Of a stretch of DNA of 64,000 nt, positions 24,637-30,532 are shown piece by piece. The notes under the pieces are model-generated. The model did not search any database, was not told the origin of the DNA, and was given only the letters and a program-made list of their open reading frames with translations. The stretch is from Clostridiales bacterium. Lineage in GTDB: Bacteria; Bacillota; Clostridia; Clostridiales; Clostridiaceae. The stretch's first letter is position 1. Every line of letters begins with the position of its first letter. A program made the position numbers and the translations under genes. The stretch spans positions 1 to 64,000 of the forward strand of contig JAAYPK010000035.1 in the NCBI GenBank assembly GCA_012519845.1. Reading direction: 5' to 3'.

Positions 24637-24665
24637 TTGACAGTGGTATTTATTAGTGATAAAAT
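24637..24665 (+). promoter_or_regulatory. Upstream sigma-A promoter of veg
   Basis: TTGACA, 17-base spacer, TAAAAT. It lies 40 bases upstream of a second near-perfect promoter for the same gene. Confidence 0.6.
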
Positions 24666-24676
24666 AAATATTTTAC

Positions 24677-24705
24677 TTGACAGAAAAATGGAATTATAGT
24701 ATAAT
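24677..24705 (+). promoter_or_regulatory. Downstream sigma-A promoter of veg
   Basis: TTGACA, 17-base spacer, TATAAT: a perfect consensus promoter. The B. subtilis veg promoter is likewise known for its strength. Confidence 0.85.
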
Positions 24706-24728: not shown

Positions 24729-24962
24729 GTGGAGAAAAATAGAACTATTGCAACAATAAAGAAAACTATTGAAGATCACTTAGGAGAAAAGGTTGTTCTA
24801 AAAGCTAACGGTGGCCGTAAAAAAATATTAGTAAATGATGGAGTTTTAGAGAGCGCTTATCCAAGTATCTTTGTAATTAGATTGGAGAATGACACCCAAA
24901 GGACAGTGACATATAGTTATTCAGATGTATTAACAAAGACAGTTCAATTGGATTTTCTTTAG
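24729..24962 (+). CDS. veg: Veg family protein
   Basis: 77 residues, normal for Veg. Recognised from the block GEKVVLKANGGRKK and the C-terminal SYSDVLTKTVQLDF. The start is GTG with AGAGGGTG upstream. Veg is a small cytoplasmic protein that in B. subtilis stimulates biofilm formation by countering SinR and has been linked to spore outgrowth. Two consensus promoters precede it and a perfect hairpin terminator follows, so it is a short, highly expressed single-gene unit. Confidence 0.93.
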   Translation: MEKNRTIATIKKTIEDHLGEKVVLKANGGRKKILVNDGVLESAYPSIFVIRLENDTQRTVTYSYSDVLTKTVQLDFL

Positions 24963-24971
24963 AATATAAAG

Positions 24972-25001
24972 AGCTTTGATATTAGTATCAAAGCTTTTTT
25001 T
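24972..25001 (+). terminator. Terminator of veg
   Basis: A 10-bp perfect stem (AGCTTTGATA / TATCAAAGCT) with a 4-base loop and a T7 run. Confidence 0.9.
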
Positions 25002-25138
25002 ATGTATATATACTTATAGTAAGTAGCTATATGGTATTGTAAAACAGTCCATATATTCTAGTTTATATAATAATAGTAAATTATTATTATAAATTATACT
25101 TATTAATAAATTAAAATTAATATTAATTATAAAAAGGT

Positions 25139-25224
25139 AAAAAAAGAAAGATGGTGGGTTCCATCTTTCAACTATGGTATAAAAGGGTATTGAGAATTTA
25201 TGAGAGGTTATATGGTCAATAACC
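25139..25224 (-). ncRNA. Candidate small RNA upstream of sipL
   Basis: The minus strand has a complete small-RNA architecture in the 440-base gap between veg and sipL. A consensus promoter would start transcription at G25224. The first bases form a 6-bp hairpin (GGTTAT/ATAACC), followed by an A/U-rich linker of about 35 bases. The end is a 9-bp perfect stem (GAAAGATGG/CCATCTTTC) with a T7 run on this strand. Predicted length is about 86 nt. No convincing ribosome site or ORF is present. Targets are unknown; the rest of the gap is AT-rich with no other feature seen. Confidence 0.6.
25146..25169 (-). terminator. Terminator of the candidate small RNA
   Basis: 9-bp perfect stem with 6-base loop, followed on the minus strand by seven T residues (25139-25145). 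On the plus strand there is no T-run, so it works only in the minus direction. Confidence 0.75.
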
Positions 25225-25230
25225 AATATT

Positions 25231-25259
25231 ATAATACGACAAAATTAGATAGTTGTCAA
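25231..25259 (-). promoter_or_regulatory. Sigma-A promoter of the candidate small RNA
   Basis: On the minus strand: TTGACA, 17-base spacer, TATTAT. One mismatch from consensus and optimal spacing, in a region with no minus-strand protein gene. Confidence 0.7.
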
Positions 25260-25401
25260 CAGATTTTTTCACAATTATAATTTTTATTTATAGTTAGAAA
25301 TAAAATTAATTTTATAAATAAAAAATTAAAATAATAGTAATAAATATAATTGTTTTATATATAAATATTAGTAGGAATAGGTATAATGGAGGTACCAATA
25401 A

Positions 25402-26964
25402 GTGACTAATATAGATATTATTAAAGAAAATATTCAATTTCAAAAACTTGTTAAATATGATTTATCTACGATTATATTGCAGAATGAATATTTAATTCCT
25501 GATACTCAGCCAGATGTACAAGAAATTATGATGGTAGACACAAAACCCATAATAACAGGACAAAAAATAATGAATGATAAAATTATTATTGAAGGAAACA
25601 TTGAATATACAATAATTTATATACCTAGGGATGATAATGAGATATTAAATTCAGTAAAGTATTCTGAGAAGTTTACAAGTTTTGCTGATATTGTTAATGG
25701 GGATAACAATATTTCTTTTGAATCAGAATGTAAAGTTGAACATATTGAAGCACATATAATGAATGAAAGAAAAATACAAATTGATGGGGTAATGAATGTT
25801 ACTTATGAAATATTTAAAACCAGAAATTTTGATTTTGTTAAGGACATAGAAAATTCTAATAACATTCAAGTACTAAAAAAACAAGATACAATAAATAGAC
25901 TTATTTCCAGCAAAGAATTCGAGGTTTTAAGTAAGTCAGTTATTAGAATTGGAATGGATAAACCCCAAGTATTCAAAATACTAAATACTTCACTAACTCT
26001 TCATAAAAAAGATATCAAAGTAGGAGAAGACAAAATATATTTTACTTGTTATTGTAAAGTTAAAATACTGTATTTAGGTGCTGAAAGTAAAGAAGTTATT
26101 TCAATAGAAGATGATGTATTCTTGTCCAAAGAAGAAGAGATGATTGGAGCATATTCAGAAATGACATCTTATGCTTCTTATGGAATAAAAAATAGTGAAA
26201 TACAGCTTGAAGATGATGATTTAGGAGAAGCGAGAATTATTAATACAGAGTTTTTACTAGCTGCATTAGTTAAGGTATTTTCAATGGATAATGTTGAAAT
26301 AATGAAAGATGCATATTCAACAAAACACACATTAAATCTAAATAAGAAAGTTCATGAAATAGAGTTATTGAAGGGAATACAAAGTACTGAATCCATAATA
26401 AAAGACAATATATATATAAAAGAAGGGGATATTCCACCTGAAAACATAGTAGTGACTCTTGGAAATGTATTAATTACAGAAAAAAATGTTTTAGATGGGA
26501 AAGTAGTAGTTGAAGGGGTATTAAAAGCTAATATTTTATATAAAACATCAAGAGAAGAAAGATTTTTTGGTAATATTCAAGGAGATATACCTTTTACAAT
26601 TGCTGTAGATATGCCATTTGTAACATCTAAAATGAGTGCATCAGCCAATTGTACTTTAGAAAATATTGAGGCTGCTATAGAGGTTAATACAATAGCAATA
26701 AGGGGAACTGTTTCATTATCAGTAAAAGTATGTTGTGAAGAGGAAAAAGAGTTTATTGAAGATGTAATAGAATCTGAAGAAGAAATTAAAACAAAAAAAG
26801 CAAGTGTAACCATTTATGTAGTAGGTAATGGTGATACATTATGGAAGTTAGCTAAAAGATTTAATACAACAGTAGAAGAACTTGTAAAAATTAATAACAT
26901 TGAAGATGAAAATGTTATTAATCCAGGAGAAAAATTAATTATTCCAGGAAGAGCTATTTTTTAA
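25402..26964 (+). CDS. sipL: SipL-like spore coat morphogenetic protein (SPOCS/DUF3794 domains plus LysM)
   Basis: About 520 residues, as for C. difficile SipL. It has repeated SPOCS (DUF3794) beta-rich domains (roughly 35-125, 165-250 and 340-430), including YLIPDTQPDVQEI, and a C-terminal LysM domain (about 470-517: VGNGDTLWKLAKRFN). In C. difficile the LysM domain of SipL binds SpoIVA and tethers the coat to the forespore. The start is GTG with GGAGGT 8 bases upstream. Expression in the mother cell is expected, but no clear sigma-E promoter was read. Confidence 0.92.
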   Translation: MTNIDIIKENIQFQKLVKYDLSTIILQNEYLIPDTQPDVQEIMMVDTKPIITGQKIMNDKIIIEGNIEYTIIYIPRDDNEILNSVKYSEKFTSFADIVNGDNNISFESECKVEHIEAHIMNERKIQIDGVMNVTYEIFKTRNFDFVKDIENSNNIQVLKKQDTINRLISSKEFEVLSKSVIRIGMDKPQVFKILNTSLTLHKKDIKVGEDKIYFTCYCKVKILYLGAESKEVISIEDDVFLSKEEEMIGAYSEMTSYASYGIKNSEIQLEDDDLGEARIINTEFLLAALVKVFSMDNVEIMKDAYSTKHTLNLNKKVHEIELLKGIQSTESIIKDNIYIKEGDIPPENIVVTLGNVLITEKNVLDGKVVVEGVLKANILYKTSREERFFGNIQGDIPFTIAVDMPFVTSKMSASANCTLENIEAAIEVNTIAIRGTVSLSVKVCCEEEKEFIEDVIESEEEIKTKKASVTIYVVGNGDTLWKLAKRFNTTVEELVKINNIEDENVINPGEKLIIPGRAIF

Positions 26965-27087: not shown

Positions 27088-27903
27088 ATGGATAAGAAAC
27101 TAAGTGGAAATTTAATTATTATTGGTGGAGCAGAAGATAAAGAAGGGAAAAAAGAAATATTAAAAAAAGTGTGCAATTGCATTAATAAATTAACAGATAT
27201 TTTATTAGTAGCTACAATTGCTACTGAATATCCAAAGGAAATGGCTAGTAAATATAAAAAAGCTTTTGGAGAATTAGGTGTTAAGAATATAAAAATTTTA
27301 GATATTAGCAAAAGAGAAGAGGCGTTTATAGATGAAAACAAGTTAATAATAGAAGAGGCTTCATTAATATTTTTTACTGGAGGAGATCAATTAAGAATAA
27401 CCAGCTTGATTGGAGGAACTCCAATATATGATGCATTAAAAGAATCGGCAAATAAGGGAAAATATATAGTTGGAACCTCAGCAGGTGCATCAGTAATGTG
27501 TGATACTATGATTTTAGAAGGTGAAGATGAAGAGGCACCGAGAAAATGCACAATTAAAATGTCTTCAGGATTAGGGTTAGTTAACAATATAATTATTGAT
27601 CAACATTTTATTCAAAGAGGAAGAATTGGAAGATTATTAACAGCAGTGGCTCAAAATCCAGAAGTTTTAGGAATCGGAATAGATGAAAATACAGCTATTT
27701 GTTTGAATTTTGAAGGAGACATTGAAGTAATAGGTGAAGGTGCCGTTTATTTTGTTGACGGAAGTAAGATAACCTATAGCAATGTATCTGAACAACAAAG
27801 TAATGAGGTACTAAGTATATATAATGTTAGAGTAGACGTATTAAAAGAAGGTAACAAATTTAGTCTTAAAAGAAGGGCACCTTTTGAGGAGGAAAAATCT
27901 TAA
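27088..27903 (+). CDS. cphB: Cyanophycinase
   Basis: About 271 residues, normal for cyanophycinase (peptidase family S51). It cleaves cyanophycin (multi-Arg-poly-Asp) to beta-Asp-Arg dipeptides. The nucleophile is visible in GTSAGASVM; FTGGDQLR and QHFIQRGRIGRL are further family blocks. GAGGTG precedes the ATG. The cyanophycin synthetase gene starts at once downstream, and GAGGAGG for that gene lies in the last codons of this one. The pair makes and degrades the polymer. Confidence 0.95.
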   Translation: MDKKLSGNLIIIGGAEDKEGKKEILKKVCNCINKLTDILLVATIATEYPKEMASKYKKAFGELGVKNIKILDISKREEAFIDENKLIIEEASLIFFTGGDQLRITSLIGGTPIYDALKESANKGKYIVGTSAGASVMCDTMILEGEDEEAPRKCTIKMSSGLGLVNNIIIDQHFIQRGRIGRLLTAVAQNPEVLGIGIDENTAICLNFEGDIEVIGEGAVYFVDGSKITYSNVSEQQSNEVLSIYNVRVDVLKEGNKFSLKRRAPFEEEKS

Positions 27904-27904
27904 G

Positions 27905-30532
27905 ATGAAAATAATAAAACAAAAAATATATGAAGGAATAAATATATATTCTCATAAAAAATGTATTAGAATAGATGTTGATTTGTGCGGTTATGCTGAA
28001 ATTCCAAGTAAGGATATACCAAATTTTAATCAAGAACTTGTTGAAATGATTCCAGAATTAAAATCACATAGATGTGGTATTGATGAAGAAGGCGGATTTG
28101 TAAAAAGGCTAAAAGAAGGCACTTATTTGGCTCATATATGTGAGCATATAATAATAGCAATTCAAAACAAATTAGGTATAGAAGTTGCATACGGAAAAGC
28201 AAGAGAAATTAAAGATGATTTATACTATATAATATTTCAATATGAATATAAAACAGTTGCGATAGAAACTGCTAGATTAGCAATAGATATAATTAATAGT
28301 TTAATTAATGAACAAAAAATAAGTTATGAGGATAGAATAAAAATTTTAGAAGAAATATTATCAAAAGAGATAACAGGACCAAGTACACAAGCCATAAAGC
28401 TAGCAGCTAATAGATTAGGGCTACCAACTATGCAATTAAGTGATAGTGGCTTTTTTCAAATTGGTTATGGGAAGCAAGGTCGCGTTATAGAAGCCACAAT
28501 AGGATCAAATAGTAGTTGTGTAGCAGTTGATATAGCTTCTGATAAATTATTAACAAAGGAACTGCTTAAAAGTCAGAATATACCTGTAGCAGAAGGAAAT
28601 AAGGTTACTAATATAATTAATTTACTAAAAGAAGGAGAAGTATTGGGATATCCACTTGTATTAAAACCAAGATTTGGTTGTAAAGGAGATGGAGTAATAC
28701 TAAATATTTCTTGCGAAAAAGAGCTAATTGAAGCCTATAATTCCATTAAGGATAAGTATCCTGATTTAATTATAGAAAAAAATATTGAAGGAAATGACTA
28801 TAGGGTATGTGTGGTAGGTAATAAGGTAATAGCAGTTTCACTAAGAATTCCACCTTTTATTATTTGTGATGGAATTCATGATATAAAGTTTTTAATTAGG
28901 AAAGTTAATGAAGATTCAAAAAGAGGATTCGATCATGAAAAACCATTAACTAAAATAAAAATAGATGAAAAATTATTAAAAACAGTTAAGAAGCAGGGCT
29001 ATAGTTTATCTTCTATACCACCTGAAGGTAAAAAAATAACCTTAAGATATAATGCAAATTTATCTACTGGCGGGGAAGCAATAGATTATACTGAATTAAT
29101 TAGTGAAGAAAATAAAGAAATATGTATACGGGCAGCAAAAATAATAGGTCTTGATATATGTGGAATAGATATAAAAACTAAAGATATAAGTCAATCATTG
29201 AATAGTAATGGGGTAATTATAGAAGTAAATGCCGCACCAGGTATAAGAATGCATGAACATCCAAGTGTAGGTATATCAAGGAAGGTTGGCGAGGCTATAT
29301 TAAGATTACAGTATAAAGGAGAACCTTGTAATATACCTGTAATATCTGTTACAGGAACTAATGGAAAGACTACCACTACAAGATTAATATCTCATGTACT
29401 TAGTACTATGGGATATAAAGTTGGAATGACTTCAACAGAAGGAATTTTTATAGGTGGGAAATGTATTGATAAAGGCGATGATACTGGTTATTTAAGTGCA
29501 AGAACCATTTTATTTAATAAAGAAGTTGAAGTAGCAGTATTAGAAACAGCAAGAGGAGGTATAATCAAAAAAGGATTAGCCTATGAAAATGCAGATGTTG
29601 CTGTAATAACAAATATAACAGAGGATCATTTGGGGTTAGATGGAATAAATACAATGGAAGAATTAGCATTTGTAAAATCATTAGTAGGGGAAGCTGTAAA
29701 AGCTTCAGGATATGCTGTAATTAATTGTGATGATAAATGGAGTAAAAAAATAATTCCAAGAATTAAAGTTAATAAAATATTCTTTTCCAAAAACAAAGAA
29801 AATCCATTATTAATAAATGAAATTAATAATGGAGGAATAGCTGTGTTTGTAGAAGGGGAAAACATCTATGTAATTAATGATAATAAGAAGTATCACATAA
29901 TTAATATAGAAAACATGCCTCTTACTTTTGGAGGAATTTTAGAATTCAATATTGAAAATGCATTGGCTTCATGTGCAGCATTAGTTGGAATAGGAATTGA
30001 TTATTGTATGATATCAAAAGGATTTAAAACATTTCAAATTAATGAACAATACAATCCAGGAAGATTTAATATGTATGATTATAATGGAGTTAATGTAATA
30101 TTAGACTATGGACATAATATTGAGGGATATAAAGCAATTTTCAAAGCAATTGATAAAATTAAAAGTAATAAAGTAATTGGTGTTATTGGAGTTCCAGGAG
30201 ATAGGGAAAATGAAAATATGGTTAAAATAGGTGAGCTGTGTGGTGAGTTTTTAGATTCCATAATAATTAAAGAAGACAAAGATAGACGTGGAAGATTAGA
30301 AGGAGAAACCGCCAATTTGATAAAAGAAGGTATTTTAAAAACTTCTAATAATAAGAATGCATTAATAATTTTAGATGAAATAGATGCATTTAATGAAGCT
30401 ATAAAACTTAGCAAAGAAGGGGACATAATAATAGTTTTCTATGAAGATTTTAATTCTTTGTTAGAAATAATAAAAGGTAATCAGAAAGACAAAGGAATTA
30501 ACGAAAAAAACTTAAATGTAGCAAATAATTAA
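27905..30532 (+). CDS. cphA: Cyanophycin synthetase
   Basis: About 875 residues, typical of CphA. An N-terminal domain (about 1-160) is followed by an ATP-grasp domain (about 215-480) that adds Asp and a Mur-ligase-like domain with P-loop GTNGKTTTTR (about 484-493) that adds Arg. Visible blocks are LVLKPRFGCKGDGV, EVNAAPGIRMHEHP and LDYGHN. ATG 27905 is chosen; it follows the cphB stop directly with GAGGAGG 12 bases upstream. In C. perfringens cyanophycin enzymes have been linked to spore assembly, which fits the position between sipL and spoIIR. A terminator hairpin follows. Confidence 0.95.
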   Translation: MKIIKQKIYEGINIYSHKKCIRIDVDLCGYAEIPSKDIPNFNQELVEMIPELKSHRCGIDEEGGFVKRLKEGTYLAHICEHIIIAIQNKLGIEVAYGKAREIKDDLYYIIFQYEYKTVAIETARLAIDIINSLINEQKISYEDRIKILEEILSKEITGPSTQAIKLAANRLGLPTMQLSDSGFFQIGYGKQGRVIEATIGSNSSCVAVDIASDKLLTKELLKSQNIPVAEGNKVTNIINLLKEGEVLGYPLVLKPRFGCKGDGVILNISCEKELIEAYNSIKDKYPDLIIEKNIEGNDYRVCVVGNKVIAVSLRIPPFIICDGIHDIKFLIRKVNEDSKRGFDHEKPLTKIKIDEKLLKTVKKQGYSLSSIPPEGKKITLRYNANLSTGGEAIDYTELISEENKEICIRAAKIIGLDICGIDIKTKDISQSLNSNGVIIEVNAAPGIRMHEHPSVGISRKVGEAILRLQYKGEPCNIPVISVTGTNGKTTTTRLISHVLSTMGYKVGMTSTEGIFIGGKCIDKGDDTGYLSARTILFNKEVEVAVLETARGGIIKKGLAYENADVAVITNITEDHLGLDGINTMEELAFVKSLVGEAVKASGYAVINCDDKWSKKIIPRIKVNKIFFSKNKENPLLINEINNGGIAVFVEGENIYVINDNKKYHIINIENMPLTFGGILEFNIENALASCAALVGIGIDYCMISKGFKTFQINEQYNPGRFNMYDYNGVNVILDYGHNIEGYKAIFKAIDKIKSNKVIGVIGVPGDRENENMVKIGELCGEFLDSIIIKEDKDRRGRLEGETANLIKEGILKTSNNKNALIILDEIDAFNEAIKLSKEGDIIIVFYEDFNSLLEIIKGNQKDKGINEKNLNVANN

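Follow-up and report, generated by a model that had tools for sequence, protein, structure and literature searches.

A 29-base module common to a conserved candidate small RNA of the Clostridium family and to phage late regions

We found that the gap between veg and sipL in the window, by which we mean the whole 64,000-nucleotide stretch of DNA analysed, holds on its minus strand what its sequence indicates to be a genuine and unusually conserved small-RNA gene. The surprising part is that a 29-base module of the predicted RNA, CTCTCATAAATTCTCAATACCCTTTTATA, is common to this host small RNA and to phage late-region RNAs. We tentatively read the locus, with a confidence somewhat short of even, as a stand-alone regulatory small RNA whose module would act in trans by short pairing with multiple mRNAs and would be copied by phages as a mimic. 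If transcribed as predicted, it would be an unusually conserved small RNA, absent from Rfam 15, in a large family that comprises industrial, gut-dwelling and pathogenic species.

Anatomy, conservation and genomic setting

The initial annotation had placed a TTGACA-N17-TATTAT promoter, a hairpin at the predicted start and a clean stem with a T7 terminator in this gap, giving a predicted length of about 86 nt, and all of these parts lie where it put them (Table 1). It had taken the lack of a conserved promoter and terminator in close relatives as telling against a gene; both proved to be conserved, and at the level of sequence, a stand-alone small-RNA gene is strongly supported. The gap exists as described, except that it measures 439 bases (stop 24962 to start 25402) rather than 440.

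Table 1. Features of the predicted small-RNA gene and of its neighbours in the window.
Feature	Position	Strand	Basis or remark
-35 hexamer TTGACA	25254..25259	minus	sequence and promoter scan
-10 hexamer TATTAT, spacer 17	25231..25236	minus	sequence and promoter scan
Predicted small RNA, 86 nt	25139..25224	minus	sequence, fold, RNA model R1
5' hairpin GGTTAT-TGACCAT-ATAACC	25206..25224	minus	predicted fold
29-base module CTCTCATAAATTCTCAATACCCTTTTATA	25178..25206	minus	common to phage RNAs
Terminator stem-loop GAAAGATGG-loop-CCATCTTTC	25146..25169	minus	terminator scan and fold
T7 tail	25139..25145	minus	sequence
veg, convergent neighbour	24729..24962	plus	stop 24962
sipL-like LysM protein gene, divergent neighbour	25402..26964	plus	start 25402

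Six bases separate the -10 hexamer from the GG at 25224, which is the first base of the 5' hairpin. This hairpin contains six pairs, the linker 36 bases and the terminator stem nine pairs; the module lies between the two hairpins of the predicted RNA, and the predicted fold leaves all but its first base unpaired. The predicted energy of the 86-nt fold is -17 kcal/mol, where shuffled sequences average -8 (z -3.8) and none of 200 folds as well, and RNA model R1, which was built from sequences including that of the window, matches the predicted RNA over its full length with 115.1 bits. In a scan of a 1.8-kb region, terminator-like sites numbered three against 0.2 in shuffles; promoter-like sites were not in excess (21 observed, 16.3 in shuffles, sd 3.9), so the promoter claim must rest on conservation.

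Of 90 loci collected, the 82 that were anchored were compared; excluded were seven copies that were second ones, diverged or truncated, and a single locus that did not anchor. The promoter spacer (best of 16-18) is 17 in all 82, and the -35 hexamer reads TTGACA in 75 and TTGACT in 7. The hairpin starts 6-7 nt past the -10 in 82 of 83 loci, a set overlapping the 82. Immediately before the -10 stands TGTCG (25237-25241, minus strand), found in 56 of 83 promoters of relatives, with TGACG in 11 of the 83 and other letters elsewhere. The extended string TGTCGTA resembles a Spo0A box, with one mismatch to the consensus; a one-mismatch 0A box occurs in 57 of 83 promoters of the small-RNA gene.

The linker is present as first described, but the wording "short A/U-rich" underplays it, as it is the most conserved part of the small RNA. 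Its 33-base form ACCTCTCATAAATTCTCAATACCCTTTTATACC occurs unchanged in 83 of the 90 loci; among the other seven, one is cut by a contig end, one belongs to a decayed second copy, three carry one change and two carry three. The promoter spacer, terminator loop and flanks vary while the linker stays exact, and in alignment A1 (39 distinct sequences, mean column identity 92%) the module is nearly invariant. Among the matches listed, 112 of 117 named stretches, selected by a 26-base exact pattern, have the exact linker, and four of the five non-exact ones are phage-type copies. Among the named genomes that carry the gene are C. beijerinckii, C. ljungdahlii, C. magnum, C. drakei, C. tetanomorphum, Sarcina ventriculi and a Haloimpatiens.

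In much of the Clostridium family the gene forms part of the core genome. A 140-base query matches 64 of 68 genus genomes; G041 (completeness 59%), G042 (78%), G035 and G052 gave none, and the last two have no Veg match either. Across the family, a 104-base DNA query (BLAST) matches 148 of 206 genomes, and the covariance search suggested by the initial annotation matches 147 of 206, each reaching 33 of 46 genera. A class-wide draw of 391 genomes gave 12 matches, all in the same family; since at least 19 family members are among the genomes listed, about 372 genomes of other families gave no match under these stricter filters, which lose weak matches.

A coding reading of the locus was considered and rejected: the terminator loop varies between 5 and 8 bases across loci, so that any reading frame is shifted, and the 70-aa minus-strand frame listed there extends beyond the terminator. 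Across the 39 distinct sequences, 99.1% of the cells in the two helices hold a pair. The 5' hairpin is paired in 97.9%, with A-U changing to G-U at one pair and no two-sided changes, and the terminator stem in 100%. The compensatory changes hoped for at the outset are nearly absent (one of 15 pairs, in one of 39 sequences) because the sequence hardly varies; with a single two-sided pair, covariation speaks neither for nor against the helices.

The only NCBIfam match of veg is BflmStimVeg (E 2e-24), below the model's cut-off. NCBIfam matches only a C-terminal LysM-type stretch of the sipL-like protein, in every case below cut-off, and the name sipL is taken from the initial annotation. Among 164 full copies of the small-RNA gene, some genomes being counted twice, the fetched stretches hold sipL in 156 and veg in 153. 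Five copies from three species have neither: L059 and L119 (C. paraputrificum), L060 and L179 (G018), and L062, which are second full chromosomal copies away from veg-sipL. L062 is a further full copy in G051, whose veg-adjacent copy (L066, L303) has CCCTTTTATA tandemly duplicated inside the linker.

We searched 15 family genomes, either lacking a model match or chosen for comparison, for Veg. It is present in 12, with sipL beside veg in all 12, and one of these 12 gaps (L289) holds the small-RNA gene, while the other 11 (99 to 446 bases) contain nothing closer than seven edits to the module. Within one genus the gap measures 468 bases where the gene is present (L289) and 298 bases where it is absent (L294). 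The gene is thus either cleanly present between veg and sipL or cleanly missing there, and behaves as a unit. In the gap of G178 (L299, without the gene), a plus-strand stretch lies seven edits from the module, by chance or as a remnant.

Several further features adjoin the locus. A two-way terminator-like hairpin (24968-24999) follows veg, and two tandem sigma-A-type promoter matches (24637-24705, with 11 and 12 of 12) precede it. Upstream of sipL we read by eye TCATA ... TATATAAA, which we take to resemble a sigma-E promoter. Cyanophycinase and cyanophycin synthetase genes (27088-30532) adjoin sipL.

The module in phages and prophages

The 29-base core is found again in prophages and in viral contigs, where it has the same orientation as the late genes. 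An exact 19-base pattern returned 15 viral-contig stretches, and the partial second matches in the genus search consist of the linker alone, on other contigs. Annotated plasmids gave no match; among annotated phages, two Bacillus phage G records match weakly over query bases 49-76, a stretch that covers at most the terminator and the very end of the module's flank.

Among the 46 loci examined, two are without the module, and 34 distinct phage-type contexts were distinguished. Setting aside four looser ones (L090, L257, L258, L262) leaves 30 close contexts, in which the module is kept with sharp edges and both flanks are exchanged. Because the module itself served to find the phage copies, its conservation among them is in part a product of the search. 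In the phage-type loci looked at, the neighbours of the module are phage genes. A late transcription regulator occurs in 21 of 37 oriented phage-type loci, always upstream and on the same strand, and a terminase in 11 of 37, always downstream and on the same strand; the remainder are short stretches or gave no match, some loci are duplicates, and six regulator queries and the terminase queries were drawn from the phage-type loci themselves. Four of the regulators were tested, and each matches phrog_36, a family of transcriptional regulators.

The surroundings of the module differ from phage to phage. It directly follows an Rfam-called tRNA in L078 and L089 and a tRNA-like fold, recognised by eye, in L076, L080, L086 and L087, and in 8 of the 34 contexts the promoter-like string TANAATAGTA lies roughly 20-47 bases before it. 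The phage scaffold flanks are more structured than shuffled flanks (Wilcoxon p 4e-6, 30 contexts). The openness of the module in phage RNAs, 0.54 against 0.50 with shuffled flanks, shows no significant difference (p 0.16).

A DUF3800-VIII RNA (RF03075) was present in 6 of 20 phage-type loci scanned with Rfam; it adjoins the module on its 3' side in L077, L082, L210, L211 and L217, and lies about 100 bases 3' of it in L215. The 67 genus genomes contain 18 DUF3800-VIII matches in nine genomes, 14 of them over the family cut-off, and in L255 and L261 the module stands directly 5' of the RNA with 1-2 edits. The 18 matches average 8.9 edits to the module against 11.4 for shuffled modules (0/500 as low), and the 12 matches over the cut-off that lack a near-exact copy average 10.25 against 11.5 (2/500 as low), though the DUF3800-VIII loci are related to each other and the edit-distance test is therefore weak. 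In L256 and L264 the module and a terminator hairpin are followed, some 200-450 bases on, by a DUF3800-VIII RNA whose 5' segment differs. An alternative DUF3800-VIII 5' segment was considered as a copy of another host small RNA and rejected: it has three matches in 67 genomes, all DUF3800-VIII loci, and none is a stand-alone host copy.

These contexts suggest, with appreciably less than even confidence, a core clostridial small RNA with a displayed 29-base module that phages would plug into interchangeable scaffolds, namely tRNA tails, terminator hairpins and DUF3800-VIII RNAs of the region between late regulator and terminase. The DUF3800-VIII RNAs would then be carriers of displayed 5' segments, and an exact copy of the host effector could let the phage take over or saturate the effector's partner. 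The phage copies amount to a natural experiment: what phages have retained of the RNA is probably its working part. The shared module also gives a way into the question of what DUF3800-VIII RNAs display.

Partner of the module and competing explanations

On the reading to which we give most weight, a vegetative-type (sigma-A-like) promoter would drive an 86-nt RNA ending at its own terminator and displaying the nearly invariant module between two hairpins. The module would be the working part, acting in trans, and its pyrimidine-rich blocks CCUCUC, UUCUC and ACCCUUUU would pair with mRNAs, most likely over short stretches and with multiple targets. Clostridial phages would have adopted this module in RNAs of their own, encoded between late regulator and terminase, and would in this way produce an imitation of the host RNA late in infection. 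C/U-rich blocks in stand-alone small RNAs usually act on RNA targets. For this reason we lean towards RNA targets as the partner, with a protein reading close behind.

We looked for complementary targets at several lengths. A long antisense target was rejected, since complements of at least 21 of 24 positions, G-U allowed, comprised in 10 genomes only gene copies and one match with three mismatches. Across 67 genus genomes, an exact 13-base complement occurs at 16 places beyond the host gene copies, about eight of them phage-type, against 11 places for the reversed pattern; an exact 12-base complement occurs at about 32, of which 11 are phage-type, against about 74 reversed. We read these hand counts as no excess of exact 12-13-base complements over reversed patterns. 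Two extra 13-base sites (G016:C4 and G017:C5) may be orthologous. At 48 start regions of the window the module pairs with a mean of -11.8 kcal/mol against -12.1 for shuffled modules, showing no enrichment, and one rRNA operon of one genome gave no excess pairing, 50 of 60 shuffles being as good.

For seed pairing, an invariant block of 29 bases is long, and this counts against the base-pairing reading. Its long contiguous invariance, the complementary target searches that found none, and the different structured scaffolds around the same module would instead suit a site for a conserved host protein such as an RNA chaperone, a ribonuclease or a regulator, which the host RNA would control or titrate, on the model of CsrB acting on CsrA, with phage late RNAs as decoys. 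Titrating RNAs typically carry a repeated array of binding blocks, however, and the module has only two UCUCA blocks; we know of no protein for it and consider this explanation somewhat unlikely, though worth serious weight.

A descent in the opposite direction, in which the host RNA would be a domesticated phage late-region RNA with a module inherited from DUF3800-VIII-type RNAs, appears improbable. In its favour, the module or a looser form of it stands directly 5' of the structure in DUF3800-VIII matches, at the lower edit distances given above; against it, the loci are interrelated, the host gene keeps its neighbours throughout the family, and an alternative DUF3800-VIII 5' segment lacks a stand-alone host counterpart in the 67 genomes.

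The synteny with sipL and veg would also suit a local regulator of either gene, acting by antisense pairing or through transcription from the divergent promoter. Against shuffled linkers, however, linker pairing gave a mean z of -0.30 at 104 distinct sipL start regions, -0.65 at 98 distinct veg start regions and +0.13 at 55 distinct yabG start regions, so that regulation of sipL is unsupported as far as pairing goes. Together with the extra copies away from veg-sipL and the phage genes that neighbour the phage copies, this makes a local role decidedly improbable. The RNA may still have a part in sporulation.

An attachment site, with the module as crossover core between host RNA gene and phage or other element, is highly improbable in spite of the sharp ends of the identity on both sides and an integrase-like frame (by eye) near the module in L212, given that the phage copies lie between late regulator and terminase where flanking genes are recognised and that the integrase-like frame in L213 (by eye) is more than 10 kb off.

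Comparison with known systems

The initial annotation had called the RNA undescribed, which holds as far as Rfam 15 and the open-access literature go; an earlier prediction elsewhere is possible. None of the 4227 families of Rfam 15, including RsaE, FsrA and 6S, matches the small-RNA locus, the only two weak hits in the gap (E 1 and 1.5) both falling on the hairpin after veg, and we found no open-access paper naming this RNA. A 2011 paper reportedly predicted Clostridium small RNAs and may include this gene. A paper of that description is cited as reference 40 in PMC3879012, which itself deals likewise with clostridial small RNAs, assembling a set for C. acetobutylicum from terminator-based prediction and RNA-seq; veg, CAC2905 and CAC2906 are absent from its main text. 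The method of a GC-based survey including C. novyi largely misses small RNAs, according to PMC6429828.

Compared with the DUF3800-VIII RNA (RF03075, cut-off 40.2 bits), which in some phage-type loci has the module directly 5' of it, the window RNA ends in a plain terminator hairpin, and RF03075 has no match in the window, nor any down to E 5 in 24960-25420. In the case of RsaE/RoxS and FsrA, trans-acting small RNAs of Firmicutes, the RNA has its own promoter and terminator, a length of about 85-110 nt and C/U-rich single-stranded stretches. The window RNA is predicted to resemble them on each of these points, but differs in matching nothing in Rfam, in its longer invariant stretch, in having no target found and in being shared with phages.

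Among phage RNAs, StxS of Shiga-toxin phages has a late-region origin. It acts on host regulation as host small RNAs usually do, and, in the available part of PMC12197685, no letter-for-letter copying of a host small-RNA module is noted for it; the hosts also differ. AgvB, a prophage small RNA that counters the host GcvB, is likewise a phage RNA interfering with a core host small-RNA network, as described in the same source. AgvB mimics the targets of the small RNA (PMC12197685), whereas here the phage carries the small RNA's own module, in the same sense.
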